A DNA stretch of 64,000 nucleotides from Clostridium sp. BNL1100 (GTDB taxonomy: Bacteria > Bacillota > Clostridia > Acetivibrionales > DSM-1351): positions 2,795,001-2,859,000 of the forward strand of contig NC_016791.1 of the NCBI RefSeq assembly GCF_000244875.1, written 5' to 3'. How positions within the stretch are numbered: position 1 is the first letter of the stretch; the number at the start of each line of letters is the position of its first letter. Below, one piece after another: positions 7,146-44,755 of this stretch. The translations under genes and the position numbers were made by a program. A model generated the notes under the pieces. That model was not told where the DNA came from and did not search any database. It saw nothing but the letters and a program-made list of their open reading frames with translations.

Positions 7146-7753
7146 CTTAACAGCCTTGCAAACTGACTTTCCACTTCTTGTCGAAGGATCGTCACATCAT
7201 CATTATTATTGATAACTTTATTTGCGATACTTAAATATTCCTCATCGGAAATCTGGGAACGAATTCTTGAAACAGCTTCCTCATAGGTCATACCGTTTCT
7301 CTTCATTATTCTTTCAACCCTTATCTCCATTAGCGCAAAAACTGTCCAAACCTCATCACACAAATCAAGAAAGCCGTTTTTAATAGGAATGGGTGCATCA
7401 ATAACAATAACTTTTGTCTGTTTTAGCAGCTGTTCTTCCACATTTTCTTTTATTTTTTGGGCAACAAATTTATGCACAATACTGTTCAAAATCCTGAGTT
7501 TGTTTTCATCATTAAACACTCTAGCCGCCAGTTCCTTGCGTTTTAGCTGCCCCCAATCATCAAGTATATCCTTACCGAACTCCTGTGTCAACTCCTCTAA
7601 GGCCCTTTTCCCGGGCTCTACGACCTCTCTGCTTATCACATCTGCATCAATTACAACAGCGCCAAGTTCTTTAAGAATACTGCTTACTGTACTTTTCCCG
7701 CTTCCTATTCCGCCTGTTACCCCTAAAATTATTGATTTTCTATTTTGTTTCAT
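7142..7753 (-). CDS. coaE: Dephospho-CoA kinase
   Basis: Last step of coenzyme A synthesis: ATP-dependent phosphorylation of the 3'-hydroxyl of dephospho-CoA. The P-loop GVTGGIGSGKST is near the N-terminus, followed by the CoA-binding DADxISR segment and the lid VERIMKRNGMTYEEA. I place the start at 7753 (MKQNRK), where GGGGA lies eight bases upstream; an ATG at 7768 has no ribosome site. It overlaps the polA stop by about 14 bases and the lytic transglycosylase start by four, so all three are translationally coupled. Confidence 0.93.
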   Translation of the reverse strand: MKQNRKSIILGVTGGIGSGKSTVSSILKELGAVVIDADVISREVVEPGKRALEELTQEFGKDILDDWGQLKRKELAARVFNDENKLRILNSIVHKFVAQKIKENVEEQLLKQTKVIVIDAPIPIKNGFLDLCDEVWTVFALMEIRVERIMKRNGMTYEEAVSRIRSQISDEEYLSIANKVINNNDDVTILRQEVESQFARLLR

Positions 7754-10430
7754 ACCAACTATCCCCATGTTTTACATCTACTGTTAAAGGTACTTTTAAT
7801 TGTACGGCATTTTCCATACAATCCTTTAACACTTTTGATACCTCTTCCAATTCAGATTTCTCTGTTTCCACAATCAATTCATCATGAACCTGTAGAATAA
7901 GTTTCGACTTAAGCTTTCTCTTTTTCAATTCATTATAAACCTTTACCATTGATATTTTGATAATATCTGCCGCACTTCCCTGAATAGGCGTATTCATTGC
8001 AACACGCTCTCCAAAGGAACGCATGTTAAAATTACTGGATTTAAGCTCAGGAAGATACCTTCTTCTGCTGTAAAGAGTTGTCACAAACCCAAATTCTTTG
8101 CCTTTTTCAACAGTATCACTCATGTATTCCTTAACCTTGGAATACTTATCAAGATAGTCATCTATATATTGTCGAGCTTCCTTTTTTGTTACCCCAATAT
8201 CTTTTGAAAGGCTGAAATCCCCTATTCCGTAAACTATTCCAAAATTAACGGCTTTCGCCCTTGACCTCATTAACGATGATACCTCTTCCGGAGGTATTCC
8301 AAATACCTTTGAAGCAGTAGTAGTATGAATGTCCTCGTTTTTTAAAAAGGCTTCTATCATATTCGGATCATCTGTTATATGTGCAAGTACTCTTAGTTCT
8401 ATCTGTGAATAGTCGGCATCCAGCAGTACATAATCTTGGTTGGTCGGAATAAATACCTTTCGTATTTTCCTTCCCATTTCCAGCTTCACAGGTATATTTT
8501 GTAGATTTGGCTCCGTACTGCTGATTCTTCCGGTTGCCGTCACTGTCTGGTTAAAGTTTGAATGAATCTTACCATCCTGCTCCAATACGGACAAAAGTCC
8601 ATCGGCATATGTTGACTTGAGTTTCATCAACTGTCTGTATTCAAGAATTCTTTCTACTATCTCATGCTTATAGGAAAGCTGTTCTAGTACCTCTGCACTT
8701 GTTGAATATCCTGTTTTCGTTTTCTTTCCAACAGGCAGTCCCAATTTTTCAAAAAGTATTACACCCAGCTGTTTTGGAGAATTAATATTAAAGGTCTCTC
8801 CTGCCTGCATGTATATTTCATTTTCCAGTATTACAAGTCTTGAATCCATTTCCTTTGAATATGCTTTCAGGCCTTCCACGTCAACTTTGAAACCCCTTAG
8901 CTCCATATCAGCCAGTACCTCAACTAGAGGGAGTTCTATTTTATAATAAAGTTCATCCTGACCGTTATCCCTTATAATAGGCCTCAGCTTCTGTGTCAGC
9001 CCAAATATGGCATTTACCGCCGCAGCACAAACCTCAGATGAACTTATATCCTGTTCCTGATCAAGTCTTTTGCCATGTTTATCATACAAAACTTCAACGG
9101 GGGTGATACTTTGTTTTAGTTTATCTTCAGACAGCTCAGAAATTGTGTAAGTGCTTCTTGTAGGTTCAAGTATATATGCTGCTATAAAAGTATCAAATAC
9201 TACATTTTCAAGCTCTATTCCACTAGATTTGAGATACTTGTATAAATTTTTTAAATCATGTCCGTATTTTTCAATATCCTTGCTTTCAAAAATTTCACGA
9301 AGTTCTTTAACAGCCGTTTCACAGGTTAATTTTTCTGAGAAAATGATATTTGCAGGAGCGTATTCCTCATTACAGGCAAAAATACACAGATCATCCAGAT
9401 AACTGCCTGTAGGATCAACGTGATAATACACAGATACATTACCACTGAGCTTGATTACACTTATATATGATTGTAGTTCACTTATGGAATCAACATCCAC
9501 ATGTTCAATTTTTAAAGCTTCAGTTGCTTCTACAAAAGGAGTATTTTCCAGACCGAACTTTTCTATAAGGGTCTTAAATTCCAGCCGTTTGAAGATACCA
9601 TATAATGCTTCTTTGTCAATTTCTGTTCTTGCAAAACTACTTAGGTTCTCTACACCGGGAACTTTTCTGTATATAGTAGCCAGCCTTTTACTCATAAAAG
9701 CAAGCTCTTTGTTATTCTCCAGTTTTTCACGGACGCCCTTCTTCTCTACTTTATCTAAATTTTCATATAATTCTTCTAAAGAGTTAAACTTATTAATTAG
9801 ATCAATTGCAGTTTTTTCACCTATACCGGGTACTCCGGGGATATTGTCCGAGGTATCACCCATAAGCCCCTTTACGTCTATAAGCTGGCCCGGTGTTACA
9901 CCGTATTTCTCTATAACCTTTTCATAATCGTATTGATCTGTTTCGGTTTTATTTCCTCTTGTTACAGGAAGTTTTATTCTTGTATGGCTTGATGCCAGCT
10001 GTAATGAATCCCTGTCGCCGGTTAATAGTATCGTTTCCATTCCCTGCTTTTCAGCATTCAAAGAAACAGTTCCCAGTATATCGTCAGCTTCAAACCCTTC
10101 CACTTCGACTCTTGCAATGTTCATAGCATCCAAAACCTGTTTTATGATGGGAACCTGAACTGCCAACTCATTTGGCATTCCCTTTCTTTGGGCCTTGTAT
10201 TGATCATACTCCTTATGCCTGAAGGTAGGGGCTTTTAGATCAAAGGCTACGCAAACATACTTTGGGTTTTCATCCTGAAGATATTTTGAAAGTATATTTA
10301 TGAACCCAAAAACCGCATTTGTATATAATCCCTCGGACGTTGTAAGCATGGCTGCTCTGCTAAGTCCGTAAAAAGCTCTGTTAAGTATACTGTTACCGTC
10401 TACAACTAAAATTTTGTCTTCCGAATTCAT
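7740..10430 (-). CDS. polA: DNA polymerase I
   Basis: An 896-residue family A polymerase. The 5'-3' exonuclease domain (1 to about 295) has helix-hairpin-helix GDTSDNIPGVPGIGEKTA. The central 3'-5' exonuclease-like domain (about 310-490) lacks the usual DxE metal residues, as is common in Gram-positive PolA. The polymerase domain has motif A DYSQIELRVLAHI, motif B RSRAKAVNFGIVYG and motif C VHDELIVE. It fills Okazaki gaps and repairs DNA. The start is set at the ATG at 10430, five bases after GGAGG; a GTG 12 bases upstream would overlap that ribosome site. Leads the polA-coaE-slt operon. Confidence 0.95.
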   Translation of the reverse strand: MNSEDKILVVDGNSILNRAFYGLSRAAMLTTSEGLYTNAVFGFINILSKYLQDENPKYVCVAFDLKAPTFRHKEYDQYKAQRKGMPNELAVQVPIIKQVLDAMNIARVEVEGFEADDILGTVSLNAEKQGMETILLTGDRDSLQLASSHTRIKLPVTRGNKTETDQYDYEKVIEKYGVTPGQLIDVKGLMGDTSDNIPGVPGIGEKTAIDLINKFNSLEELYENLDKVEKKGVREKLENNKELAFMSKRLATIYRKVPGVENLSSFARTEIDKEALYGIFKRLEFKTLIEKFGLENTPFVEATEALKIEHVDVDSISELQSYISVIKLSGNVSVYYHVDPTGSYLDDLCIFACNEEYAPANIIFSEKLTCETAVKELREIFESKDIEKYGHDLKNLYKYLKSSGIELENVVFDTFIAAYILEPTRSTYTISELSEDKLKQSITPVEVLYDKHGKRLDQEQDISSSEVCAAAVNAIFGLTQKLRPIIRDNGQDELYYKIELPLVEVLADMELRGFKVDVEGLKAYSKEMDSRLVILENEIYMQAGETFNINSPKQLGVILFEKLGLPVGKKTKTGYSTSAEVLEQLSYKHEIVERILEYRQLMKLKSTYADGLLSVLEQDGKIHSNFNQTVTATGRISSTEPNLQNIPVKLEMGRKIRKVFIPTNQDYVLLDADYSQIELRVLAHITDDPNMIEAFLKNEDIHTTTASKVFGIPPEEVSSLMRSRAKAVNFGIVYGIGDFSLSKDIGVTKKEARQYIDDYLDKYSKVKEYMSDTVEKGKEFGFVTTLYSRRRYLPELKSSNFNMRSFGERVAMNTPIQGSAADIIKISMVKVYNELKKRKLKSKLILQVHDELIVETEKSELEEVSKVLKDCMENAVQLKVPLTVDVKHGDSWYETK

Positions 10431-12447: not shown

Positions 12448-12879
12448 ATGATTAGTACTATCCTTGTAACTGATGATAATATCCTGGACAATGCAATACT
12501 AAGAAATTATCTTTACAAAGAACGTGTTAATATAGTTTCAGTCCTTAATGGACGAGAAGCTCTGGATATGGTAGAAAGCAGAAATGTTGATGTTATAATA
12601 CTTGATTTGGTAATGCCGGTTTTAGATGGGTTTGGTTTTCTTGAGGAATTCTGCAAAATGAGTTCTTATAAGGAAATACCGGTAATAATTGCATCCAACA
12701 TAGAAATGGATCAAATTGAAAAAGTGTTGAATTACGATATTTATGATTTTATCCCAAAACCAATTAATGAGATTAACAGAATGGTGGTAGTAAATAAGGT
12801 TAGAAAAGCCATACAATTCAGAAAGATGATTAGTCAACTTAAATTACTTGAATCTAAAGTAACACACTCACCCGGATAA
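12448..12879 (+). CDS. Stand-alone CheY-like receiver protein
   Basis: A 143-residue receiver domain: acidic pair D9/D10, phosphoacceptor D53 in IILDLVMPVLDG, S83 in place of the usual Thr/Ser switch, and K104 in FIPKP. There is no output domain. The last ten codons (LESKVTHSPG) run into the murA breakpoint: the 3' end lies on the 11-bp inverted repeat and on antisense murA sequence. The original C-terminus may have been longer or different. AAGGAG sits 8 bases before the ATG. No partner kinase is nearby. Confidence 0.85.
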   Translation: MISTILVTDDNILDNAILRNYLYKERVNIVSVLNGREALDMVESRNVDVIILDLVMPVLDGFGFLEEFCKMSSYKEIPVIIASNIEMDQIEKVLNYDIYDFIPKPINEINRMVVVNKVRKAIQFRKMISQLKLLESKVTHSPG

Positions 12880-31828: not shown

Positions 31829-32494
31829 TTAATCCCTGTGACCCCCGGTTATAAAGTCAACCAGTTCGGAAGGCGAAGCCAGCAGTATCTTTCCTCCGCA
31901 TGCTATTAATTCCTCTTTCTCCCGAAACCCCCATAATACACCGGCCGCCAGCATCTCTGCCCTGTTAGCCGACTCCATATCACCACCCGAATCTCCCACA
32001 TATATGGCTTGACTCGGTGCAACTCCTAGCCTTTCAGCCGCTTCAATCAGTGAAGCCGGATCCGGCTTACGGGGTATTCCCTCCCGCTCACCAAATACTA
32101 CGTCAAAATACTCGCATCCCAATAATTTTTCAACTATCTCATTTGTAGATTTGTGAGGTTTGTTTGAGCAAACTCCCATTTTTATCCCTGCTTTTTTCAG
32201 ATTATCCAGCATTTCATTTATCCCATCATAAGCTCTTGTTTTATTTACATAATTTTTATTGTATATTATACGGTAATCTTCGAGTATCTTATCAACAACG
32301 CTGTCATCTGTTCCGTCAGGGGCAGCGTTTTTTATCAGGTTCCGTACTCCGTTTCCTACAAACTTTTTATATGAATCCGTTGGGTGGGTTTTGAACCCAT
32401 GTTTTCTTATGGCCTCATTGGCACTGTCAGCCAAATCCTCCAGAGAGTTTATAAGTGTCCCGTCCAAATCAAACAGTATTGCTTTGTATTCCAT
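31829..32494 (-). CDS. HAD-family phosphoglycolate-phosphatase-like hydrolase
   Basis: A 221-residue HAD subfamily IA phosphatase: motif I LFDLDGTLINS with two catalytic aspartates, a cap domain, motif II CSNKP, lysine in PRKPDP, and motif III YVGDSGGDMESA. It resembles Gph (2-phosphoglycolate phosphatase), but the substrate of this family cannot be fixed from sequence. A single gene between the alaS leader and the divergent argJ. Confidence 0.87.
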   Translation of the reverse strand: MEYKAILFDLDGTLINSLEDLADSANEAIRKHGFKTHPTDSYKKFVGNGVRNLIKNAAPDGTDDSVVDKILEDYRIIYNKNYVNKTRAYDGINEMLDNLKKAGIKMGVCSNKPHKSTNEIVEKLLGCEYFDVVFGEREGIPRKPDPASLIEAAERLGVAPSQAIYVGDSGGDMESANRAEMLAAGVLWGFREKEELIACGGKILLASPSELVDFITGGHRD

Positions 32495-32682
32495 TTTCTC
32501 CTCCGAAAAATTGCATAGATTAAAGGTAGGACTATTATAGCATAATATTTTTAATTAAGATTGAATATATGCCAAATTTAATTGATTCATTCTGCATAAT
32601 TATGTATAATCAACTTAAAATAAAGATGTTATTATTTGTATTCAAATTTAAATAGAGCCTGAATAGGCACATGGAGGTTCAC

Positions 32683-33885
32683 ATGAATATTATTGATGGT
32701 GGTGTTACTGCTCCCAAAGGCTTTAAAGCCGCAGGAGTTGCCTGTGGAATAAAGAAGAATAACAGGAAGGATCTTGCGATAGTTTGTTCTGAGGATACAG
32801 CCGTTGCGTCAGGCGTATTTACAACCAACGTTGTTAAAGGACACTCCCTGCAAGTTTCAATGGAACATATTAAGAATGGTTTTGCAAGAGCAATTGTAAT
32901 CAATAGTGGAAATGCCAATGCCTGTGTCGGTGAAACCGGTTACAAGGATGCAAAGGAAATGACCGAGTTGACTGCCGAACTTTTACAGTGCGATGCTCAG
33001 GATATTCTTGTTAACTCTACCGGAGTAATAGGTACAAAGCTAAATATGCCTTCCATAAGATCAGGTATACGTTTGGCGGTCAATGCCCTAAGCTCTCAGG
33101 GAGGGTCAGATGCTGAAGAAGCTATAATGACTACCGACCTGATGCCAAAGGAAATCGCCGTTGATATAGAGCTTCAAGGTGAAACCGTTCGTATTGGTGG
33201 TATTGCAAAGGGTTCCGGAATGATTCACCCTAACATGGCTACTATGATAGGTATAATCACAACAGATGCAAATATATCGAGAAGCCTTCTTGATAAAGCC
33301 CTTAAACAATGTGTAAAAAAGACTTTTAACAGAGTTTCCGTAGATGGAGACACTAGTGTTTGTGATTCTGTTTTTGTACTGGCTAATGGTTTTGCAGATA
33401 ATGATGCCATTGTAAAGGAAGACTATGAGTATTCAAAATTTATTGATGCAATGATGTTTGTCTGTACTTATCTTGCTAAGTTAATGGCTAAAGACGGTGA
33501 AGGAGCTACAAAGCTTATTGAGATTCAAGTTGACGGTGCCGGTGATGAAAGCGATGCCTATAAGGTTGTAAGTACTGTTGCTAAATCTCCTTTGGTAAAA
33601 ACAGCTATCTTCGGAGAAGATGCTAATTGGGGAAGAATATTTACGGCTGTAGGATATTCCGGTGCTTCCTTTGACCCTAATCTTACAGATATATATATAG
33701 GAGATATCCTTGTTTGTAGAAATGGAGCGGCCGCTAATTTTGATGAAGCTGCTGTAAAAGAAATTATTAAGAAAAAAGAGATTGTTATTAAAATAAATCT
33801 TAAAAAGGGAAATGTGTCAGACAGGATATGGACTTGTGATTTTTCATATGACTATGTTAAGATAAACGGAAGTTACAGAAGTTAA
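32683..33885 (+). CDS. argJ: Bifunctional ornithine acetyltransferase / N-acetylglutamate synthase
   Basis: A 400-residue ArgJ. It transfers acetyl from N-acetylornithine to glutamate and, in bifunctional forms, uses acetyl-CoA too. The self-cleavage site is in KGSGMIHPNMATMIG: the chain is cut before the Thr of MAT, which becomes the nucleophile. NSGNANACVG and EDANWGR are also characteristic. The start is the ATG at 32683, five bases after GGAGG; an upstream ATG at 32671 overlaps that site. It stands apart from other arginine genes, which is unusual. Confidence 0.95.
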   Translation: MNIIDGGVTAPKGFKAAGVACGIKKNNRKDLAIVCSEDTAVASGVFTTNVVKGHSLQVSMEHIKNGFARAIVINSGNANACVGETGYKDAKEMTELTAELLQCDAQDILVNSTGVIGTKLNMPSIRSGIRLAVNALSSQGGSDAEEAIMTTDLMPKEIAVDIELQGETVRIGGIAKGSGMIHPNMATMIGIITTDANISRSLLDKALKQCVKKTFNRVSVDGDTSVCDSVFVLANGFADNDAIVKEDYEYSKFIDAMMFVCTYLAKLMAKDGEGATKLIEIQVDGAGDESDAYKVVSTVAKSPLVKTAIFGEDANWGRIFTAVGYSGASFDPNLTDIYIGDILVCRNGAAANFDEAAVKEIIKKKEIVIKINLKKGNVSDRIWTCDFSYDYVKINGSYRS

Positions 33886-33955
33886 ACGATTGCCGAATTT
33901 TACTATTACTGATATAATGTTTGTACAAGAACTTTTTGGGGGAGGTAATTGTAAA

Positions 33956-34375
33956 ATGTCTACGCAATTGGTTTTATTTAAGATAAACAATGAAATATTT
34001 GCAATTAGTATAAATAATGTAAATATAATTGAAAGAATTACGGATATTTACAAAGTTCCTGATACACCTGAGTATATTGATGGATTGATTAATTTAAGAG
34101 GAAAAGTCCATACAGTTTTTAATTTGAGAAAGAAGTTTGGATATTTGCCAAAAGAGTCTGATGACAATACAAGAATTATCATATTGAATCATCAATCAAA
34201 CGTTGGCCTTCTCGTTGATGAGGTAATGGAAATATTCAGTGCGGAAGATTCCGAAGTAAAGCCTGCTCCTGAACTTATTTCAGGTATTTCAGGCAAATTT
34301 TTCAGCGGTGTTATTGAAAGAGACGGTCGTATAGTACTTATTCTTGATCTTGAAAAATTATTTGAAGCAAAGTAA
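33956..34375 (+). CDS. CheW-like chemotaxis coupling protein
   Basis: A 139-residue single CheW domain: VLFKINNEIFAISINNV, IDGLINLRGKVHTVFNLRKKFG, NVGLLVDEVMEIF and the closing IERDGRIVLILDLEKLF. CheW proteins join chemoreceptors to the CheA kinase. No CheA or other che gene lies beside it; the nearest receptor is at 38.1-40.1 kb. The start at 33956 follows GGGGGAGG at about ten bases; the frame extends upstream to 33890 but without a good site. It closes with its own terminator. Confidence 0.9.
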   Translation: MSTQLVLFKINNEIFAISINNVNIIERITDIYKVPDTPEYIDGLINLRGKVHTVFNLRKKFGYLPKESDDNTRIIILNHQSNVGLLVDEVMEIFSAEDSEVKPAPELISGISGKFFSGVIERDGRIVLILDLEKLFEAK

Positions 34376-34392
34376 AAACAACAAAACAATGG

Positions 34393-34437
34393 GCTGTCCA
34401 TTAGTGGCTAAATAGTTACCAATGAACAGCTTTTTTT
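34393..34437 (+). terminator. Terminator of the CheW-like gene
   Basis: GCTGT...ACAGC stem with an inner CCATT/AATG pairing, followed by seven T. Confidence 0.8.
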
Positions 34438-34482
34438 GCATCTGCTATAAATCTCTAATTTCTCCAAAGGCACTGTGTACAT

Positions 34483-34510
34483 AAAAAAAGAGACTGAACA
34501 ATAATCTCTT
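34483..34510 (-). terminator. Terminator of the RiPP operon
   Basis: On the minus strand AAGAGA pairs with TCTCTT across about 11 bases and runs into a seven-T tail. It lies 118 bases after the precursor stop. Confidence 0.75.
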
Positions 34511-34546
34511 AATGATACAGCCCCTTTTGATGTCAAACTATATATG

Positions 34547-34580
34547 TAACCTATTTAAATAAATGATATATACCTCTAAA
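34547..34580. repeat. Direct repeat copy downstream of the precursor gene
   Basis: About 34 bases, roughly 85% identical by eye to 34827-34860 in the same orientation (shared cores ATTTAAA, TAAATGATA and ATACCT). The two copies bracket the precursor peptide gene. Confidence 0.6.
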
Positions 34581-34627
34581 AAATATAAATCCTTTGTAAA
34601 AATCTATTCATTGCATTTCAGAACTTA

Positions 34628-34792
34628 TTACCAAGTTGCCAAGATGGATGAATAAAGGCCATTTAAATTCATATCCTGGACTTGGCTATTGCCTTTACAC
34701 TGGATATAACATTGGGCATAATTACAAGGGCAACCTGCAAATGCCATAACTGTGTTAGATACCTGATCATTTCTTTTTGATAGTTTCTTCAT
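34628..34792 (-). CDS. Cys-rich RiPP precursor peptide, CLI_3235/Clo7bot-like
   Basis: A 54-residue peptide. The leader MKKLSKRNDQVSNTV is followed by MAFAG and a core with four cysteines spaced C21-x-C23-x4-C28-x3-C32, then a tail NLNGLYSSILATW. The ATG at 34792 has a perfect AGGAGG eight bases upstream, and the stop is TAA at 34628-34630. The basic MKKL start, the SNT motif before the core and the Cys cluster are the pattern of the clostridial CLI_3235-type precursors (TIGR04065/Clo7bot). It lies 99 bases after the acyl-carrier-related gene of the same operon. Thioether cross-links made by the radical SAM enzyme are inferred, not seen. Confidence 0.85.
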   Translation of the reverse strand: MKKLSKRNDQVSNTVMAFAGCPCNYAQCYIQCKGNSQVQDMNLNGLYSSILATW

Positions 34793-34826
34793 GAAATTCA
34801 CCTCCTCTTATAAATGTTTTTATAGG

Positions 34827-34860
34827 TAAACCATTTAAAATAAATGATACATACCTTTAA
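34827..34860. repeat. Direct repeat copy upstream of the precursor gene
   Basis: Partner of 34547-34580. It lies in the untranslated gap between the acyl-carrier-related gene and the precursor ribosome site. It could be a remnant of a tandem precursor duplication or a shared RNA element. Confidence 0.6.
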
Positions 34861-34891
34861 CAAATTAAAACTTCTCCGCACAACTCCTTCT

Positions 34892-35167
34892 TCATAATAA
34901 TTTTAGTTCTTCTGGAAGCTTTGCCAATTCATTTAGTATGGCATCTGCTAAATTTGATAATTTCCAAATATTGTAGTCATTTTTCTCAAATATCCCGAGT
35001 ATCTCTTTTCCATATATTTTCTCAAGTTCATCAACAACATATACCGCATATACCACTGGATATTTGTGATGACATCCGAGTATATTGTCATTCTCATCCT
35101 CTATTTGTATTCCTATTATCTGATACACAATTTCTTTTATTTTATCCATTATCTCGTTCTTTTCCAT
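34892..35167 (-). CDS. Peptide-maturation acyl-carrier-related protein
   Basis: A 91-residue four-helix protein with an acyl-carrier pattern (EKNEIMDKIKEIVYQIIGI... then VVYAVYVVDELEKIYGKEI). Its C-terminal half aligns with helix II of ACPs, but where ACPs have DSL, with the phosphopantetheine serine, this protein has PVV and no serine nearby. It therefore probably cannot carry a prosthetic arm. Best match from memory is TIGR04069, found only in CLI_3235-type peptide clusters. The start at 35167 (MEKNE) follows AAGGAG; the upstream frame to 35185 overlaps the previous stop. It begins 10 bases after the maturation protein. Confidence 0.78.
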   Translation of the reverse strand: MEKNEIMDKIKEIVYQIIGIQIEDENDNILGCHHKYPVVYAVYVVDELEKIYGKEILGIFEKNDYNIWKLSNLADAILNELAKLPEELKLL

Positions 35168-35177
35168 ACGTCTCTCC

Positions 35178-36260
35178 TTACACAAGTTCTATATTATCCT
35201 CTAATTCCCCCAACATTAAGTTGAAAATATCATCCTTTGACTCTTCACGAAGCATATGGCAAAACTTCATAGTTTTATCACTAATTTCAGGGATACCTTT
35301 ATTACACCGATGCCTATCCAACGAAAAATATTCTACTTCGTATGCTTGAGAAACTTTAAATTGTCTATTAGTCATATAAAAATAATCTGTAATGCATCCT
35401 ATTCTTCCCTTACAAAAATTCGCTATTTCATACAGATCCTTTACCTTAAGGTTTTCATTATGATAAAGGCACATCATATTAATATCAATATTTAATGCAG
35501 ATGTTATAATTAAAGAATTTTCCCCAAAATAGTTGGTTACATAACTATTAATAGGAAGGATTCCTCCGGCAACTCCTAGAATAATTACATCATAATCCTC
35601 TTTAAGCACTTCTCTATTTATATAATAGTTAAACATATATACTTTTTTGTCAATTGATATATTCTTTGACATAAGAAAATAAGGAAGTTTCCTGAAGCCA
35701 AACATTTCACTATAATCTTTTGTACCAAACTGTAATACTCTATACCCTTTGTCTTCAAATTTTTTCCTTAAATCCAATTGTGCTTCAAATTTATTGGTGT
35801 TCTCCCCCATAGACATGACTGTTATGACAGGAATATCCGGCTGTGTAAGTTTAGGAATTCGCATATTATCATAAAGTTCAACTTCCGAAATATTATCCAG
35901 GAGTTTGATATTTGACATAACATCTAAGCGAGCCTGACAGTAGTCGTATATTTTTTTATTTACCATTGCAATACGATTCTTTAGTATTGCCATTTTTATC
36001 TTTTCAAAATATGTATCTTTTAGTTCATCGAAGTTCTTATCTAGAATAAGTACCACATCACATTTTTCTATTGCATTTCCAAAATCACTTGTAATTATTA
36101 TTCCAGTCTCAACTTCATCAAATACGCCTGCATCCTTACCATTTTCATATGCTCCCTCCAGGCATACAAGGCTGACAATTTCATAATTTTTTAGCATATT
36201 TCGATACCTAATTATAGAACTCTCGTTCAGATCATAAGGATATACCAATAATTTATACAT
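35178..36260 (-). CDS. RiPP maturation system protein, TIGR04066-like
   Basis: A 360-residue cytoplasmic protein. The first part (1-125) has an alternating strand/helix pattern. The second (from about residue 137) opens PVITVMSMGENTNKFEAQL, which reads like a degenerate P-loop of the dethiobiotin-synthetase/GTPase type, followed by YRVLQFGTKDYSEMFGF and VIILGVAGGILP. It corresponds to the TIGR04066 family known only from Cys-rich peptide clusters; its reaction is not known. The start at 36260 follows AAGGAGGAG, so it overlaps the end of the radical SAM gene by eight bases and is translationally coupled to it. Confidence 0.78.
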   Translation of the reverse strand: MYKLLVYPYDLNESSIIRYRNMLKNYEIVSLVCLEGAYENGKDAGVFDEVETGIIITSDFGNAIEKCDVVLILDKNFDELKDTYFEKIKMAILKNRIAMVNKKIYDYCQARLDVMSNIKLLDNISEVELYDNMRIPKLTQPDIPVITVMSMGENTNKFEAQLDLRKKFEDKGYRVLQFGTKDYSEMFGFRKLPYFLMSKNISIDKKVYMFNYYINREVLKEDYDVIILGVAGGILPINSYVTNYFGENSLIITSALNIDINMMCLYHNENLKVKDLYEIANFCKGRIGCITDYFYMTNRQFKVSQAYEVEYFSLDRHRCNKGIPEISDKTMKFCHMLREESKDDIFNLMLGELEDNIELV

Positions 36261-37659
36261 ATATCTCCTCCTTGCCAAAATTGTAACCAAATTCTTTTAG
36301 GAAACAAAAAGTAAGAAGTTTATCTTCAGCTTCAATTAATGAATTAATACAATTTGATTTCTTTGTCGCAAGATCAAACTTGCCATCTTTTATAGCATAC
36401 ATTGCACATAAAGAGCACCAGTTAATTCCCCAACAGTTTTTACAATCTTTCTCCGAGAGTTTACCAATATTCATTACCTTTGCAACTTTATCTGCCTCAG
36501 TACCTGTCTCCAATTTGCCAAGCATCAGGACTTCACTGGTTTCTACTGCTTTTTCGCATGGATATATAGTACCTTCGACATTTACAAACATTCTCATTGC
36601 ACCTGCCATACAGGGTCCGGAATGATGCCATGCCCTGTGGAGAGAATTCAGTTCCCCCATGTTTGAATACTCTAAATCTATGCCATATTTGAACTGTTCC
36701 ATTAATTCTGGTAATTTGTCCTTTTTTAGTTTTTTTATCATAGTCATCAATAAAAGAAAATAGTCATATCTTCTCAAGTTCACAAATTCTTCACTAAATA
36801 ATATATCTCCGTTGTAGTTTTTGGAGTCCATTAAACTAATACCTACCTCTACGTCGCATATTATGTCTTCAGATGCAAAGTAATTTCTGACTGCTCCGTA
36901 GTCCGATTTTGGATTTAAAACAGTATTGAACCTAAGGTTTTTTATGTATTCATTATCATATTTGATTATTTCTTTGATGTTGTTTACTATAGTATCGAAG
37001 CTTCCCTCTCCATTTGCAAACTTTCTGTTTGCATCATGGTCTTTCTTTGAGCCATCAAGGCTGATTGCAATAGCGAATCTATTCTTTATTAAAAAATCAG
37101 CTACCTTCCTATTTAAAAGTGTACCGTTAGTAGTCATTCCATATCTTGTATTTCTATCGGGATACGCTTCTTTTACATATGCTACACATTTTTTTATTAA
37201 ATCCAGACATAGTAAAGGTTCTCCGCCATAAAAGCTTATATGAACATCATCCAATTCATTTGAATGTTCGTATAAATAATCAATTGATTTTTTAGCTAAT
37301 TCCCATGACATCACTTTGTTGGAATGAACTCTGTTTTCATATTCTCCTGAATAAACACAATAACTGCATCTAAGATTGCAATTCTGAGTAACCTGCAATA
37401 TAAGAAACTGCACTCTGTGATCCAGATAGTGCTGAATATATTCAGTTTCAGGGTGTAAAATTTCTTCTATTACATTTTCTTTTAAGTAACCGTACTTCTG
37501 ATATTTAGGCAAACATCCCACTTCATTTTCGCTAATCTCTTTTTTTTGTAACTTGTCCAGTTCCTCATAATCTTCTTTGCTTATGTTTAAGATTTTATTT
37601 CTATTCCTATCGAATACGTAATATTTTTTTGGCGTTTTTATAAGCTTGTACACAATCAT
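36253..37659 (-). CDS. ccpM: Radical SAM/SPASM Cys-rich peptide maturase (CcpM-like)
   Basis: A 468-residue enzyme. An N-terminal recognition-like region (1-85) starts VYKLIKTPKKYYVFDRN. The radical SAM domain has the iron-sulfur motif C94-x3-C98-x2-C101 (CNLRCSYC) and SFYGGEPLL. The SPASM domain near the C-terminus (about 340-445) has CMAGAMRMFVNVEGTIYPCEKA and CKNCWGINWCSLC, enough cysteines for auxiliary clusters. Such enzymes form thioether bonds from Cys to backbone or side-chain carbons of a precursor. The operon partners and the 54-residue precursor identify it as a CcpM/TIGR04068-type maturase. First gene of the operon. Confidence 0.88.
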   Translation of the reverse strand: MIVYKLIKTPKKYYVFDRNRNKILNISKEDYEELDKLQKKEISENEVGCLPKYQKYGYLKENVIEEILHPETEYIQHYLDHRVQFLILQVTQNCNLRCSYCVYSGEYENRVHSNKVMSWELAKKSIDYLYEHSNELDDVHISFYGGEPLLCLDLIKKCVAYVKEAYPDRNTRYGMTTNGTLLNRKVADFLIKNRFAIAISLDGSKKDHDANRKFANGEGSFDTIVNNIKEIIKYDNEYIKNLRFNTVLNPKSDYGAVRNYFASEDIICDVEVGISLMDSKNYNGDILFSEEFVNLRRYDYFLLLMTMIKKLKKDKLPELMEQFKYGIDLEYSNMGELNSLHRAWHHSGPCMAGAMRMFVNVEGTIYPCEKAVETSEVLMLGKLETGTEADKVAKVMNIGKLSEKDCKNCWGINWCSLCAMYAIKDGKFDLATKKSNCINSLIEAEDKLLTFCFLKEFGYNFGKEEIYV

Positions 37660-38013
37660 AGATCATATTGTCCTTTCTGATTAAACCTACATGCTTCTTA
37701 TATATATTAATATAAAAATTCTTCAACTGAATTAAATCTTTAAGAATTGATGGTGTTATAATCATCAAAATTAATAAATATACTCAAAATGAAATGAATA
37801 CTGTAAAAAGTACCATTTGTAAACATTTTTAATTATTTACTTTATATTTAAATATTGTAATATAATGGTACATATTAGTCAATACAAAAATCATGCTTCT
37901 ACCAAAATTTAAATATTACGTCACAATACTCCAATATTGTTAATATTTAACCCAAATTTTGCAGTAAAGCTAGTGGTATTAAGGTTTTGGTCATTATAAA
38001 AATGTTTTGACAT
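37660..38013. other. AT-rich region upstream of the RiPP operon
   Basis: About 350 bases without a gene, strikingly AT-rich with several AATATT repeats. I see one plausible promoter for the RiPP operon (37697-37726) and nothing else I can name. Confidence 0.5.
37697..37726 (-). promoter_or_regulatory. Candidate promoter of the RiPP operon
   Basis: On the minus strand TTGAAG (37726-37721) and TATATA (37704-37699) are 16 bases apart, a reasonable vegetative -35/-10 pair. The distance to the radical SAM start is about 40 bases. Confidence 0.5.
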
Positions 38014-38015
38014 GG

Positions 38016-38064
38016 AAAAATCCTCTGATCGTTGCTTTATATCAACAACTAACAGAGGATTTTT
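38016..38064 (-). terminator. Terminator downstream of the chemoreceptor gene
   Basis: AAAAATCCTCTG pairs with CAGAGGATTTTT across a 25-base loop, with T-run on the minus strand. It lies about 50 bases past the chemoreceptor stop and could also work in the other direction. Confidence 0.8.
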
Positions 38065-38114
38065 TATTTCCCTGAGTTCAGTAAACAGCGTAGCACATGA
38101 GGTTGCAGGTATTC

Positions 38115-40145
38115 CTAAACTTTGAATAAACCTACGGATGAATTCAGCTTTTTGGATAAGCCCTTAAATATGTTTGATTTTTCATGGACTTTTTTTACGG
38201 AAGTAATATTATTTTTTGTGTACTGATGTACATCGTCAGAACTATTTGCTATCTCTTCGGCAGCGTTATTGATTTGATCTACCAGTAATACAAGATTATC
38301 TTTTTGTTTATCCATTTCATGCAAATAATCAGTTATATTAAAAAGACGAGTATTTATATTGTCTATATCCTTTTTGATTTCCAGAAAGCACTCTTTTGTT
38401 TCATTTATACAGCTATTTTGTGTGTCTGTTCCTGTACTTACCTCTTCAAAACCCATACTAAGGTTGTTTGAATTCTGTACAATACTTTCAATCATTTTTC
38501 TTATTACCCCTGCCTGTGAGTTTGTCTGGTTAGACAGTTCCTTAATTTCTTCAGCTACGACGGCAAATCCTTTTCCTGACTCTCCTGCTCGTGAAGCCTC
38601 TATTCTGGCGTTTAGTGACAACAGCTGTGTTTGTTTAGCTATACTCTGAATTGTAGCAGTTATAGTATTTATCTGTTGCATTTGTGTCTGTAATCCAATT
38701 ATCATTTCATTCATTTTGCTAATACTTTTAAGATTTAGGGTTGAATTTGCTTCCAGCTTAACCATTTGGCCCTTACCCCTTTCCGCTGAACTGTTGAGTC
38801 TGTCAAGAAAGCTGTAAACATTGTTTGAGTGCTCCCTTGTTGTAGCAATCTGATCTGCAAGACTTTTTATCTCTGCTGCTGCATAACTTGTATTGTCTGC
38901 TTGATTCTTTATATTGATATTTATTTTTGAAATTGATTTTTGAGTATATTCTGATTTTTCAAATGATTCACTGGCCTCACTATACATAAGAGCGGACATT
39001 TCGTCTATTTCCCTTGAAGCTGAACTGATACCGGATATAAGTATATTCAGATTACTAACCATTTTTTTGAATGCATTTCTTAAACTGTTTATTTCTGATA
39101 TATTGATTTTTTCGTTAAAGTGAACTTCCAGAAAGCCTTCTTCAATTTTCTTTATTTGTGTGGTTAGTTCAACTACAGGGTTTGATATATATTTTGAATA
39201 AAAAATAGAAATGAGTGTAGCAAGCAGAAGCGATAATACTAAAACAATTATAAGAATAAGAATATATTGCTTTACAGGCAGCATAACTTTGTTGTAGTTC
39301 ATTTGAGCACAAACTATCCAATTTGTAAGATCTGATTTCTCCAAATGGGCTATTTTTTTTATTCCTGAATCCTTATAATTAATATTTTCATCATATACAG
39401 CTCCTTTGATTGGGATTTTGCTGTTAACTTTACTGTTGTCCATACCGTAAAAAATTCTAAATTCACTGTCCAATACAATAATTTCGCTTTTTATTTTGTT
39501 TTTGTCAAACTTGAAGAATTTATCATAGTCCACTAATGCAGTTATTGTTCCGCTGAAACCTGCCAGACTTTTCACTGCTCTCGTAACTGGTATTACTTTT
39601 TTGTTTGCTTCTTTAATAATAACATAATTACCGACTATAACTTCATTGTTTGTATCTGTTTTTATTCTTTCAAAAAGCTGCATATCGTAAAATTTAACTA
39701 TTCCTGATGTTTTTGTTTTTTTGGCTGCGGAGGCTATAACTTTTCCGTTTTTATTGCACAAGTACATCGTATCAATGAGTCCTTCTGAGCCTTCTACTAC
39801 ATTTTTCATTGAAAGCTGAATTCCGCTGTATGTTGCTGTATCCATCTTAGCATTAACACTGTTGGCCATTTCAAGTCCAACCAAGAAGTCGGTCTGAGAA
39901 GCTACTCCCTTAATGGTACTGTCTAAACTATTTATTTTTACTTCTATATTGTTCATAGTATTATAGGAATCAGATTTAAGATTGTTTAATGAAAGTTCCG
40001 TTATTTTTCCTATGGTTGTTATGTAAGTTGTAGTACTTACTGCAATTATTGGAATAAGTGTTACCGTTATAAGCACTATAAGAAGTTGTATACGAAGCCT
40101 TATATTAGTATTTATTATTTTTCTGTATATTTTTGTCACAATCAT
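38115..40145 (-). CDS. Methyl-accepting chemotaxis protein with dCache-type sensor
   Basis: A 676-residue receptor: membrane segment 1 (about 16-38), a large extracellular double-Cache-like sensor (about 40-300), membrane segment 2 (about 300-325), HAMP ([18 protein letters not shown]), and a cytoplasmic signalling domain with the hairpin tip [33 protein letters not shown]. The ligand is unknown. The start is set at 40145 (MIVTKIYRK), preceded by AAGGGG. The frame extends to 40229, but that would begin inside the pstS terminator hairpin, so the longer form is unlikely. Confidence 0.92.
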
Positions 40146-40183
40146 TTTTCCATTCCCCTTTGGAAATATTTCGACTTTTATAT

Positions 40184-40217
40184 AAAACGTGGCACTTAAT
40201 TTAAAGTGCCACGTTTT
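40184..40217 (-). terminator. Terminator of pstS
   Basis: AACGTGGCACTT pairs with AAGTGCCACGTT, then TTAT on the minus strand, starting 16 bases after the pstS stop. It separates pstS from the chemoreceptor. Confidence 0.85.
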
Positions 40218-40232
40218 ATAATATTTCAATTC

Positions 40233-41174
40233 TTATTTGAGCTTAGCTTTTTCGGCGTCATAGCGTTCGAGAGGTATATACCCTACTTCTTGGGTTAATT
40301 GTTCAGCATTATCCAGATAGAATTTTACAAATTCTTTAACCGGGGATTGATTAAGCTTATCTTTGTTTACATAAATATACAATGGTCTTGACAAAGGACT
40401 ATAGGTCTTATCCTTAATTGTTTTTGCAGTTGGCTCAATAGGTCCCTTTCCGGAATCAATTTTCAATACTTTTAGTGAATCCTGATTTTCTTCGTAGTAA
40501 GCAAACCCGAAATATCCCATTGCATCCTTATCTCCAGCAATACCTTGAACCAAAACATTGTCATCTTCACTTGGAGTATAGTCAGTTCTTGATTCCTTTG
40601 CCTTTTTATTAATCATTTCAGTAAAGAATTCAAATGTACCTGAGTCTGTACCCGGTCCATATAGTTTTATAGGCTCGTCTGGCCATGCGGGATTTACTTC
40701 TTTCCATGTCTTTACTTTACTATCCTTGCCCCAGATTTTATTCAGTTCATTAACTGTGATTGAATGTGCCCAAGTATTATCTTTATTAACAACAACAGAG
40801 ATTCCGTCATATGCAATTTCAAATTCTACATATTCTATTCCTTTTGCTTTTGCAGCCTCTGCTTCTTCCGGCTTTATTTTTCTGGAAGCATCACATATGT
40901 CTATTTCCCCTGCCGTGAACTTTTTCATTCCACCGCCCGTTCCTGACATGGCTACCGATACTTCTACCTCAGGTTGCTCGATTTGAAATTCTTCAGCAAC
41001 AGCTGATGTCACCGGGTAAACCGTGCTTGAACCGTCTATAACTATCTTACCGCTTAGATTGGTGTTACCAACATTATCATTTTTAGTACCGCTGCCGCAA
41101 GCCGCTAATGAAACAGTTAAGGCAACGCCTACTGCTAATGAAACAACTTTTTTCATATTTACTAATTTAACCAT
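40233..41174 (-). CDS. pstS: Phosphate-binding lipoprotein PstS
   Basis: A 313-residue periplasmic-type binding protein with a lipoprotein signal (lipobox SLAACGSG). The phosphate-site motifs are DGSSTVYPVTSAVAEEF, SGTGGGMKKF and GPGTDSGTFEFF. It delivers phosphate to PstCA. The start at 41174 (MVKLV) follows GGGAGG. It has its own promoter region with a Pho-box array 100 bases upstream and its own terminator, so it can be made in excess of the permease, as is usual for binding proteins. Confidence 0.95.
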   Translation of the reverse strand: MVKLVNMKKVVSLAVGVALTVSLAACGSGTKNDNVGNTNLSGKIVIDGSSTVYPVTSAVAEEFQIEQPEVEVSVAMSGTGGGMKKFTAGEIDICDASRKIKPEEAEAAKAKGIEYVEFEIAYDGISVVVNKDNTWAHSITVNELNKIWGKDSKVKTWKEVNPAWPDEPIKLYGPGTDSGTFEFFTEMINKKAKESRTDYTPSEDDNVLVQGIAGDKDAMGYFGFAYYEENQDSLKVLKIDSGKGPIEPTAKTIKDKTYSPLSRPLYIYVNKDKLNQSPVKEFVKFYLDNAEQLTQEVGYIPLERYDAEKAKLK

Positions 41175-41275
41175 TTTTATACCTCCCAAATTGTATCCTG
41201 CTTAGTTTTCGCAATTAACTGTAATTTATTATGATTAAATTATATTATGGTATTTTAAAGTCCATATTGGGATTT

Positions 41276-41312
41276 GGTTAATTAATGTTAATTCATTATT
41301 AAGAAATATTAA
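41276..41312 (-). promoter_or_regulatory. Pho box array upstream of pstS
   Basis: On the minus strand, four TTAAYA/TTAACC-type hexamers begin every 10-11 bases (plus-strand positions 41276, 41286, 41297, 41307). The -10-like TATAAT at 41244-41239 lies about 30 bases downstream. The pattern matches Firmicute PhoP direct repeats. Confidence 0.75.
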
Positions 41313-41375
41313 CACATATTTTTATCACCATATAAAAAACGGACCTATAAAGGCCCGCTAACGTAAAAATGTCAG

Positions 41376-41849
41376 TTAACGTTGTTTTCTTTTTGCAGTA
41401 AATCCCGTTGAAACAAGTTTTAAAACCGTTACACCCGTAAGACGATTTTCTTCATATGTGTAGTCATTCTTTTGGGTGTATTTTTTCATTATAAGGTTCA
41501 AACCATGAATTTTATCTTCATTATTTACTACTATTTGAGCAACAGCATCTCCTATAACACTTTCGAAATCCATTGAACAGTCACATGCTTTTACTCCTGT
41601 TACCAGCCTATGTTTACAATCCATTTCAAAACATACCCTATTGTTCTTTTTTAATATGTCAAGCTTTCTTCCTTCATTTGCACAATGCAAATATATAATA
41701 ATATTACTGTCCATAACCTCGTAACCAAAATTCATAGGTACAATATACGGCATATTATCATCTGATAATGCAATCCTGCAAACATCGCATCTTTCAATAA
41801 TTTCAATTATTTCAGTCAATTCAGTTACTTGCCTGTCTTTTCTTCTCAT
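41376..41849 (-). CDS. Pyridoxamine 5'-phosphate oxidase-related flavoprotein (NimA-like)
   Basis: A 157-residue split-barrel protein. It has CRIALSDDNMPYIVPMNFGYE, an IIIYLHCANEGRKLDIL segment and the NRVCFEMD motif, all typical of the NimA/5-nitroimidazole-reductase-like PPOX family that binds FMN. The physiological substrate is unknown. It sits between pstA (56 bases upstream) and the pstS promoter on the same strand, so it may ride on the pstCA transcript. This is an odd guest in a phosphate operon. Confidence 0.85.
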   Translation of the reverse strand: MRRKDRQVTELTEIIEIIERCDVCRIALSDDNMPYIVPMNFGYEVMDSNIIIYLHCANEGRKLDILKKNNRVCFEMDCKHRLVTGVKACDCSMDFESVIGDAVAQIVVNNEDKIHGLNLIMKKYTQKNDYTYEENRLTGVTVLKLVSTGFTAKRKQR

Positions 41850-41904
41850 TGTTTTCTCCTGAATTACAAATATTTTACTAAATATTATAATTCAGAAGAA
41901 ATAA

Positions 41905-42759
41905 TTATTCTATGGATTTTTGATATTTATTTCTTAGAACAATGGCAATTGCGTTTGTTGTTAAAAGTATTCCCAGAAGTACTATTATCCCTGCGGCAGC
42001 CAAATCCTTAAACTGTTCTTTAGGAAGCCCCATCCAATAATATATTTGCAGTGGTAATGCTGTAAATATTGAATTTAATCCTTCAGGAAGTTTGGAAACA
42101 TATGTTGCAGCCCCTACCATAATAAGCGGAGCAGTCTCTCCCAATGCCCTTGATACAGAAAGTATGACACCTGTAAATATTCCGGGAAGTGCAGCCGGTA
42201 TAACTATTTTTCTAATGGTCTGCCACTTTGTAGCCCCAAGAGCATAGGAACCGTGTCTCAAATACTGTGGTACCGCTTTTATGGCTTCCTGCGATGAAAC
42301 TATTACTATAGGCAGTACAACTAGCGACATGGTTAAAGCTCCGGCTAAAATACTTTTTCCTAAGCCAAGAGTTCTTACAAAAACAGTGAGTCCAAGTAAA
42401 CCGTAAACAATCGACGGAGTTCCTGAAAGATTTGAAATGTTTATTTTTATGAATTTGGTAAAACGATTGTTTTTAGCGTATTCTTCTAAATATACGGCTG
42501 TACCCAAACCTATAGGAACTGCGAAAAGTATTGTTAACAATATAATATATACACTACCATAGATTCCGGGCAGTATTCCGGCCTTTTTAGGAAAACGGGA
42601 CGGAAAGTTTGTAAAAAATTGTTTGGTAAGAAACGGTACTCCTCTCATGATAATATCAGCAAGCAGAATGACAAGTACTACTATTCCTATCAGCGTTACA
42701 CAAAAAATTACTCCGTGAAAAATAGAATTTTTCATTTTTCTATACTTAATCTGATTCAT
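41905..42759 (-). CDS. pstA: Phosphate ABC transporter permease PstA
   Basis: A 284-residue inner-membrane permease with six membrane segments and the EAA loop (QEAIKAVPQYLRHGSYALGATKWQTIRKIVIPAALPGI) that docks the PstB ATPase. It pairs with PstC to form the channel. It follows pstC by 24 bases. Length and topology are normal. Confidence 0.95.
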   Translation of the reverse strand: MNQIKYRKMKNSIFHGVIFCVTLIGIVVLVILLADIIMRGVPFLTKQFFTNFPSRFPKKAGILPGIYGSVYIILLTILFAVPIGLGTAVYLEEYAKNNRFTKFIKINISNLSGTPSIVYGLLGLTVFVRTLGLGKSILAGALTMSLVVLPIVIVSSQEAIKAVPQYLRHGSYALGATKWQTIRKIVIPAALPGIFTGVILSVSRALGETAPLIMVGAATYVSKLPEGLNSIFTALPLQIYYWMGLPKEQFKDLAAAGIIVLLGILLTTNAIAIVLRNKYQKSIE

Positions 42760-42783
42760 ACAATTACCTCCGATATTATGCTT

Positions 42784-43716
42784 TTAATATTCCTTCCTGT
42801 ATTTTTCAACCATGTAATGAGAAAGAATATTAAGTCCCAATGTAATAAGGAATAGTAGCAGACCTACGGCAAATAATGAATAGTAACCTACTGTTCCATG
42901 AGGGTTGTCACCTTGACTGGCCTGCACTATAAACGAAGTCATGGTCTGCACGCTTTCCAAGGGATTAAATGTAAGGTTCGGCCTTGCACCTGCAGCGATT
43001 GTTACAATCATTGTTTCGCCTATAGCTCTTGAAATTGCAAGGACGAATGAAGCCGAAATCCCCGATATTGCAGCCGGAACGACTACCTTCAAGGAGGTTT
43101 CCATTTTAGTTGAGCCTAAAGCAAGTGCCCCCTGCCTTAAACTGTCGGGAACAGCTCTTAATGCGTCCTCACTCAGTGAAGAAACCAGTGGTATGGTCAT
43201 AATACCAACTGCAATACTGGCACTAAGTGCATTAAAAATTTCTGTCTGGGGCAAAACTGTTTTAATTAATGGTGTTATTAAGGTCAATGCAAAGTATCCG
43301 AATACTATTGAAGGTATTCCTGCCAAAACCTCCAGAATAGGCTTTATAACCTTTCTTACTCTTTTATTGGCATACTCGCTAAGATATATTGCAGTAAACA
43401 AACCTATAGGAATTGATATAACTGCCGATATCAGTGTGATTATTAATGTTCCCATAACCAGAGGCAGTACGCCGAAGCTTGGGTTGCTGAATAATGGTGT
43501 CCATTTCCTACCGAAAAGGAAGTCCGTAATTGAAACATTAGAAAAAAAACCAATGGAATCCTTTAAAAGTGAAACAATGATTCCTATAGTCGTTAATATT
43601 GTAATTATTGCAAACAAAAACAGGATGTTTCTTGCAATTACATTTGAAATCCTCATTCTTTTTATCCTGCTGTTTACAGCTTTTTTATTCTGAAAAGTAC
43701 TTGTTGATTCTGTCAT
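42784..43716 (-). CDS. pstC: Phosphate ABC transporter permease PstC
   Basis: A 310-residue permease, six membrane segments, with an EAA loop (EDALRAVPDSLRQGALALGSTKMETSLKVVVPAA). The start is the ATG at 43716 after AGGAGG; a GTG six bases upstream is less likely. First gene of a minus-strand operon whose promoter region carries three TTAACA boxes at exact 11-base spacing. Its ATPase PstB is encoded divergently. Confidence 0.95.
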   Translation of the reverse strand: MTESTSTFQNKKAVNSRIKRMRISNVIARNILFLFAIITILTTIGIIVSLLKDSIGFFSNVSITDFLFGRKWTPLFSNPSFGVLPLVMGTLIITLISAVISIPIGLFTAIYLSEYANKRVRKVIKPILEVLAGIPSIVFGYFALTLITPLIKTVLPQTEIFNALSASIAVGIMTIPLVSSLSEDALRAVPDSLRQGALALGSTKMETSLKVVVPAAISGISASFVLAISRAIGETMIVTIAAGARPNLTFNPLESVQTMTSFIVQASQGDNPHGTVGYYSLFAVGLLLFLITLGLNILSHYMVEKYRKEY

Positions 43717-43776
43717 AAACACTCCTCCTAATATTGTAATAATAGCATTTGGAGCAATAGTCTAAAAGTAAAGTCA

Positions 43777-43804
43777 TGTTAAACGTGTGTTAATATAATG
43801 TTAA
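43777..43804 (-). promoter_or_regulatory. Pho box array upstream of pstC
   Basis: Three perfect TTAACA hexamers on the minus strand, starting on the plus strand at 43777, 43788 and 43799, exactly 11 bases apart. This is the direct-repeat arrangement bound by phosphorylated PhoP dimers in Firmicutes. Confidence 0.88.
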
Positions 43805-43898
43805 CTCATTCTCTGAATTTTCTATTTTAGTTTTGTCCTATTGGAACAAAATTTATATATTTTTGTGTTTATGTTAATAATAAAAAAAATATATATTG

Positions 43899-43937
43899 TT
43901 AACACCGAATTAACACGGAATTAAACCTGCATTAAAA
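43899..43937 (+). promoter_or_regulatory. Pho box array upstream of pstB
   Basis: TTAACA (43899), TTAACA (43910), TTAAAC (43921) and TTAAAA (43932) on the plus strand, all at 11-base intervals. It lies 60 bases before the pstB start and serves the pstB-phoU-phoP-phoR direction. Confidence 0.85.
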
Positions 43938-43996
43938 ATATATTGATATTATTAATCTGCATCAGTAATAATATTTTTTGTATAAGGAATGATAAC

Positions 43997-44755
43997 ATGA
44001 CTAACGAATATAGAATTGTTACTAAGGATCTAAATCTTTACTATGGAGATATGCAGGCGTTAAAAAATGTTTCATTGGAAATTCCAAGCAACAAGGTTAC
44101 TGCATTTATAGGCCCTTCCGGCTGTGGTAAATCGACCTTCTTGAAAACTCTAAACAGAATGAACGATCTGGTGGCATCAGTCAGGATTACCGGTGATGTC
44201 TATTTCGACGGTTTGAATGTTTATAAGGAATATGATATAGTTGAGTTAAGAAAAAATATTGGAATGGTATTCCAAAAGCCTAATCCGTTTCCAATGTCTA
44301 TTTATGATAATGTTGCTTACGGGCCACGTATTCATGGGATAAAGTCTAAATCCAAACTGGACGATATAGTTGAAAAAAGTCTCAGAAACAGTGCCCTTTG
44401 GGACGAGATTAAGGACAGATTAAAGCAGAATGCACTGGGTTTATCAGGTGGTCAGCAGCAGCGTCTTTGCATCGCAAGGGTTTTAGCTGTAGAGCCTGAA
44501 GTTGTTTTGATGGATGAACCTACATCAGCTCTTGACCCGATTTCAACTCTTAAAATAGAGGATTTAATTGAAGAATTGAAACAAAATTATACTATTGTAA
44601 TAGTTACACATAATATGCAACAAGCAGCAAGAATATCAGATTTAACAGCTTTTTTCCTCCACGGGGAGGTAGTTGAATTTGGCAATACAAACCAATTGTT
44701 CAGCAATCCAAAAGATAAGAGAACTGAAGACTATATAACAGGAAGATTTGGTTAA
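43997..44755 (+). CDS. pstB: Phosphate ABC transporter ATPase PstB
   Basis: A 252-residue ABC ATPase: Walker [11 protein letters not shown]-loop [17 protein letters not shown] (the [11 protein letters not shown] stretch is specific to PstB), signature [16 protein letters not shown], Walker [13 protein letters not shown], and H-loop VTHNM. It powers PstCA. The start at 43997 follows AAGGAATG; an upstream extension to 43943 would enter the promoter. It heads an operon with phoU and the phoPR regulators, split from pstCA by the divergent promoters. Confidence 0.97.

Follow-up and report, generated by a model that had tools for sequence, protein, structure and literature searches.

A complete CLI_3235/CcpM-type peptide operon with a divergent carrier-like protein, inserted at a site empty in four congeners of Clostridium sp. 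BNL1100

The window operon and its products

The stretch analysed here (the window) comprises 64,000 nucleotides of Clostridium sp. BNL1100 (contig NC_016791.1, positions 2,795,001 to 2,859,000) and carries a real and intact operon of the CLI_3235/CcpM kind, an already catalogued type of peptide system, with a carrier-like protein of a divergent subfamily and a clear insertion history. Its four genes (quartet A) lie on the minus strand where the initial annotation had placed them: a CcpM-type radical S-adenosylmethionine (AdoMet)/SPASM peptide maturase (36253..37659, 468 aa), a partner protein (35178..36260, 360 aa), an acyl-carrier-like protein (34892..35167, 91 aa) and a CLI_3235-family precursor (34628..34792, 54 aa). 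The maturase and partner frames overlap by 8 bp, gaps of 10 bp and 99 bp separate partner from carrier and carrier from precursor, and Shine-Dalgarno-like sequences precede all four genes. The terminator claimed for the operon is plausible; a putative intrinsic terminator on the minus strand (34478..34535), missed by a simple consensus scan, folds into a hairpin of -15.6 kcal/mol followed by a U-run (z -3.27, with 3 of 200 shuffles equally good). No RNA element reached the Rfam gathering score over 32000-40500.

Of the four NCBIfam families named for these proteins in the initial annotation, TIGR04068, TIGR04066 and TIGR04065 were matched above their curated cut-offs and TIGR04069 was not matched. 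The maturase scores 593.8 bits against TIGR04068 (cut-off 500), which bears out its assignment to the CcpM type. Its CX3CX2C AdoMet motif (C94, C98 and C101) is kept in all but one of 50 distinct relatives, the exception being gapped at this position, and the seven SPASM cysteines (C350, C368, C406, C409, C415, C418 and C437) are present in all 50. The closest solved structure by profile comparison is PDB 5wgg (E 3.8e-43), which we take to be CteB, a maturase that forms thioethers and binds its leader through a dedicated domain. Other maturase families were considered and rejected: the Clo7bot label originally attached to the operon is wrong, with 62.3 bits against TIGR04334 (cut-off 600), and the enzyme also falls short of the PapB ranthipeptide (NF047865; 211.1 bits, cut-off 340), SCIFF (TIGR03974; 156 bits, cut-off 425) and lachnocin cut-offs. 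A literature search with the name Clo7bot alone returned no match. The genome does encode members of two of these families elsewhere, at L005 and L006: its PapB-type ranthipeptide maturase reaches 389 bits and its SCIFF maturase 716 bits, both above the same cut-offs.

The precursor scores 38.5 bits against TIGR04065 (cut-off 26). Comparison with 41 other distinct precursors delimits a leader, MKKLSKRNDQVSNTVMAF, of about 18 residues with a putative end, and a core that holds all four of the cysteines previously read from this frame (Cys21, Cys23, Cys28 and Cys32). Its length of 54 aa is as claimed; the suggestion that this size is unusual does not hold, as the 42 distinct precursors span 44-77 aa (start codons picked by script) and contain two to seven cysteines.

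The description of the 91-residue protein as acyl-carrier-like is backed by its predicted structure, which adopts the acyl carrier four-helix fold, while its proposed membership of TIGR04069 (cut-off 70) fails: the protein was unmatched at E 1, and searching the whole genome at E 10 gave no match at its locus. The best match to any other NCBIfam model (E 0.02) lies far below that model's cut-off and is meaningless. Valine occupies the position of the phosphopantetheine serine, and serine is missing from this position in 40 of 42 aligned relatives. The window carrier belongs to a divergent subfamily.

The partner scores 359.3 bits against TIGR04066 (cut-off 200) and is confidently predicted to adopt the two-domain DUF1611 fold, with an altered P-loop around Lys157. 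Sequence comparison gives no significant counterpart to this structural likeness. A Pfam search of the partner did not match DUF1611 (PF07755), and no DUF1611 protein was found in this genome at E 0.001. The comparison relied on the single DUF1611 protein available, from genome G009, as 199 genomes of the phylum gave none at E 1e-30; its alignment with the partner by hhalign was not significant (E 0.26, probability 0.2%), nor was the link in a profile search of the PDB (E 1.1), and its G-K-M-T motif aligns with N-K-F-E in the partner.

Related quartets and the history of the locus

The 4.61-Mb genome contains four such quartets, A in the window, B (L027), C (L028) and D (L029), and a genome-wide search placed the precursors of all four above the TIGR04065 cut-off. 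In A and B the genes run enzyme-partner-carrier-precursor and the carrier is divergent, that of B likewise giving no TIGR04069 match; C and D begin with the precursor and have carriers above the TIGR04069 cut-off. A further TIGR04069 match, below the cut-off, falls at the remnant of a fifth quartet (L030 9843-10374; G000:C1 about 672843-673374), where what survives is a sequence for the C-terminal part of a TIGR04066 protein plus the terminal portion of a carrier gene, with no match to enzyme or precursor.

Across the genus, CcpM-type genes were detected at E 1e-100 in all 11 genomes surveyed, above the cut-off in ten of them, with 35 genes in total and up to six per genome. All 35 have a partner and a carrier-like gene as neighbours, and for 32 an adjacent precursor could be detected as well; the three exceptions lie at a contig edge (L140), next to a broken enzyme gene (L165) or at a locus with no Cys-rich small open reading frame (ORF) upstream (L159). 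The precursor comes first in 22 quartets, last in seven, between partner and carrier in three and is undetected in three. In a wider scan, from which the best 80 of 353 loci were kept and 22 of these analysed, the partner gene was present at 15 loci, two of which (L035 and L042) belong to genomes of the genus set. A survey of 391 genomes of the class found TIGR04068 (E 1e-100) in 14 and TIGR04066 (E 1e-30) in 15, the 14 all falling within the 15, and the same limits returned none of 14 control genomes. Weaker matches to TIGR04068 and TIGR04065 occurred in 13 and 8 of these controls, respectively, none above the cut-off. Relative to its paralogue in quartet B, the window enzyme is under purifying selection (dN, non-synonymous divergence, 0.18; dS, synonymous divergence, about 2 and saturated). 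The resemblance is thus more than chance, given the family scores, the invariable co-occurrence of partner and carrier in the genus and the purifying selection on the enzyme.

Plasmid carriage of the quartet was considered and rejected. A tblastn search with the enzyme at E 1e-40 matched two of 72,556 plasmid records, both from Enterococcus (37% identity over 86% of the query and 54% over 36%), and the annotated neighbours of these matches name no partner or carrier, although the gene tables are incomplete.

Alignment of window positions 32000-44000 with the corresponding sites of close relatives by BLAST delimits an inserted segment, 34376..38107, which is missing at the same site in all four compared (G007, G005, G002 and G006). 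At the empty sites the flank continues to 34375-34377 (92-94% identical), followed by 52-63 bp with a hairpin-like terminator (as judged by eye), and homology then resumes at 38108-38116 (86-94%). The flanking genes, one cheW-like and one resembling a methyl-accepting chemotaxis protein (MCP) gene, are common to congeners without the quartet; a fifth, more distantly related genome (G001) lacks both the quartet at this site and the MCP-like gene. In a midpoint-rooted enzyme tree, printed without support values, A is sister to five B orthologues and no other enzyme groups with it; the A and B enzymes are 72% identical, and quartet B adjoins a gene that reads as clpC. Quartet A is thus an old paralogue of the clpC-adjacent quartet B, and among the lineages compared it either arrived at this site or was retained there in this one alone. 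Judged from the aligned sites, one insertion would need fewer events than several precise losses, because G007, the closest relative at the site (96%), is itself without the quartet.

Insertion as a mobile element was rejected: a repeat search found no repeat pair at the two ends of the segment and weak inverted pairs inside it (for example, 34552-34572 with 37834-37854, 76%), and no transposase was recognised on reading its ORFs, the small ones having had no family scan. A 42-nt direct repeat, with copies that are 81% identical and spaced by 281 bp, flanks the precursor gene, one copy lying between the carrier and precursor genes (34829..34870) and the other just past the precursor (34548-34589). 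Among the loci examined this repeat occurs only in copies of the window locus, and it is possibly the relic of a duplicated precursor. A flanking pair was found in one of eight related quartets checked (L157; 20 nt, overlapping ribosome sites), and exchange of a precursor cassette was not adopted as an explanation of the window repeat. In G006, locus L163 carries an identical precursor sequence twice, about 5 kb apart (7519-7782 and 12498-12761), which suggests a local duplication.

Precursor cores have diverged faster than the proteins encoded beside them. In nine pairs of orthologues or paralogues, which share members and are not independent, the leader is kept while core identity ranges from 0.29 to 0.78, against 0.71-0.95 for the enzyme. 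Non-synonymous change is in excess in the core relative to the radical SAM enzyme in eight of the nine pairs (Fisher p<0.01), and replacements are in excess relative to the partner in eight of nine (p<0.05); the core alignments cover few positions, most pairs also show elevated or saturated core dS, and the reading of two B precursors began at their second codon. Recombination or misalignment may contribute to the apparent divergence.

A proposed maturation pathway and its alternatives

Taken together, these data make it likely that the window holds a complete CLI_3235/CcpM operon, an old paralogue present at this site only in this lineage among those compared, in which CcpM introduces thioether links into the precursor core with the partner and carrier as an accessory module. 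The precursor leader (L-x-K-K/R ... T-x-x-A-F/Y) would dock on the N-terminal part of CcpM. Presumably holding one cluster for AdoMet and two in its SPASM domain, the enzyme would join core cysteines to other core residues, each link lowering the mass by 2 Da. The partner and the serine-less carrier may act jointly, by helping to shape the complex with the substrate or by installing a further modification, and export, if any, would proceed through a general exporter.

Several observations weigh against this proposal. The promoter claimed in the initial annotation is unsupported, since 34300-38300 contains 17 promoter-like matches against a shuffle mean of 24.5, a signal at or below chance. The acceptor residues of the core cannot be read from the sequence, and the excess of core change is not significant in the ninth pair, B of G006 versus B of G002 (p 0.13). 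The roles of partner and carrier are drawn from predicted folds, and the sequence link between partner and DUF1611 is not significant. In the literature found, as far as its available excerpts extend, there is no direct evidence of cross-links for the CLI_3235/CcpM family, and the authors of the SacP23 study describe the thioether linkages as still to be elucidated (excerpts of PMC10731318). A motif scan recognised neither exporter nor protease near the window quartet, which leaves a secreted product uncertain.

In agreement with the initial annotation, that scan found no exporter beside the operon within 8 kb, the sole ABC ATPase in this range (43943-44755, 270 aa) reading as PstB; a half-size ABC exporter lies within 8 kb of none of the four quartets in the genome. 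Quartet D has a gene for a 219-aa ABC ATPase about 5.5 kb from its enzyme, which was added by a wider signature after the first had missed bacitracin-type ATPases. Across the genus, the stretches around 11 of the 35 quartets encode an ABC protein of 530-620 aa, by motif a half-size exporter, two of these quartets sharing one. The subtilase pattern matched in no scanned locus, so its sensitivity is unproven. The best match in this genome to a congener's quartet-side exporter (32%) is a 591-aa ABC protein that adjoins another radical SAM gene (L007/L166; G000:C1 about 207500-211100), and this pair is possibly a separate peptide system. The window product may leave through a general exporter or remain intracellular.

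One possibility, which we hold only tentatively, is a bacteriocin of narrow spectrum that leaves the cell through a general ABC exporter, with competition between relatives driving core evolution. The rapid divergence of the core, the multiplicity of CcpM genes and the ABC proteins around a third or so of the genus quartets are consistent with this; the lack of a half-size exporter near the four quartets of this genome and of any recognised immunity gene speaks against it. Bacillus subtilis itself makes subtilosin A, a peptide of about 3400 Da with a cyclic backbone. The related SacP23 cluster, expressed in B. subtilis, was active against Gram-positive bacteria, with a vector-only control negative, and its product had an m/z of 3404 and a blocked N-terminus, with no structure given and thioethers not shown (excerpts of PMC10731318). 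This mass and N-terminus resemble those of the host's subtilosin A, with which they are possibly confounded, and the activity is therefore not firm support for a bacteriocin. A cell-cell or cell-internal signal whose specificity is set by the core would suit the lack of a half-size exporter nearby in the motif scan, and the window copy adjoins chemotaxis-type genes, albeit through insertion; these neighbours are common to congeners without the quartet, and no dedicated receptor or regulator was recognised here, and we regard a signal as rather unlikely. Behind quartet C, at L028 12667-14694, the same strand carries one gene reading as a response regulator and another reading as a histidine kinase, as it does in G007 (L139), an arrangement that favours signalling.

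The predicted folds also invite a more specific proposal, that the partner is an enzyme of the DUF1611/DgcN kind that transfers acyl groups, with the carrier as a docking cofactor and the peptide acylated as well as cross-linked. This seems improbable, as the sequence similarity to DUF1611 is not significant, the G-K-M-T motif is replaced, and the usual acyl carriage is impossible for the 40 carriers that lack the serine. A related version, in which a repurposed acyltransferase of this type works with the serine-less carrier docked to it and adds a second, acyl-type modification to the cross-linked peptide, is very improbable. No such tailoring module for ribosomally synthesized peptides was described in the available excerpts of the literature found, in which DUF1611 together with radical SAM yielded nothing beyond a phage paper. 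A role of TIGR04066 as an ATPase-type immunity protein has been proposed (excerpts of PMC10731318); the predicted DUF1611 fold of the partner, together with the serine-less carrier fold, argues against it. We give the least credence to a silent or decaying quartet: the promoter signal is no better than chance and a decayed quartet exists elsewhere in the genome, but the four frames are intact, all catalytic cysteines are retained and the enzyme has a dN of just 0.18 against a saturated dS. On balance, we favor the thioether-forming operon with its accessory module.

Relation to known systems

The nearest solved radical SAM/SPASM peptide maturases are those of the SCIFF systems (TIGR03974; PDB 5wgg), from which the window enzyme is set apart by its score far under the cut-off and by the separate SCIFF maturase of this genome; to our knowledge, SCIFF systems have no TIGR04066 partner. 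Clo7bot (TIGR04334) is also a radical SAM/SPASM maturase, with a score for the window enzyme that is about a tenth of the cut-off. DUF1611 proteins and DgcN (PDB 2g0t, 2obn and 7xrj) resemble the partner in predicted fold, but without a significant sequence match, and the P-loop of the partner is altered.

Two published clusters bear comparison. The SacP23 cluster of Paenibacillus polymyxa #23 likewise encodes a CLI_3235-type precursor rich in cysteine, together with members of TIGR04068, TIGR04066 and TIGR04069, but it also has an ABC transporter, a subtilisin-like protease and a sigma factor of its own, and no counterpart of these three was recognised at the window quartet (excerpts of PMC10731318). 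The sactipeptide-like cluster of Roseburia intestinalis L1-82 has TIGR04068, TIGR04066 and TIGR04069 together, alongside an ABC transporter and a protease of the subtilase family; its authors reported that a structural gene was not obvious (excerpts of PMC4573289).

The gene set is thus catalogued, yet two of its four parts are without tested biochemistry in the available excerpts of the literature found. The main lead lies in the predicted folds of the two accessory proteins, which supply concrete hypotheses, and the four paralogous quartets, with their unlike cores and one of them an insertion, form a natural set for the study of leader specificity, cross-talk and core diversification. The pairing of precursor and enzyme in the CLI_3235/CcpM system is credited to Haft and Basu 2011 (excerpts of PMC7343975). 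The window operon differs from this system in a carrier unmatched by TIGR04069 and in a precursor that comes last, as in seven of the 35 genus quartets, rather than first, as in 22; it shares with it the precursor, maturase and partner families above their cut-offs and the gene neighbourhood.

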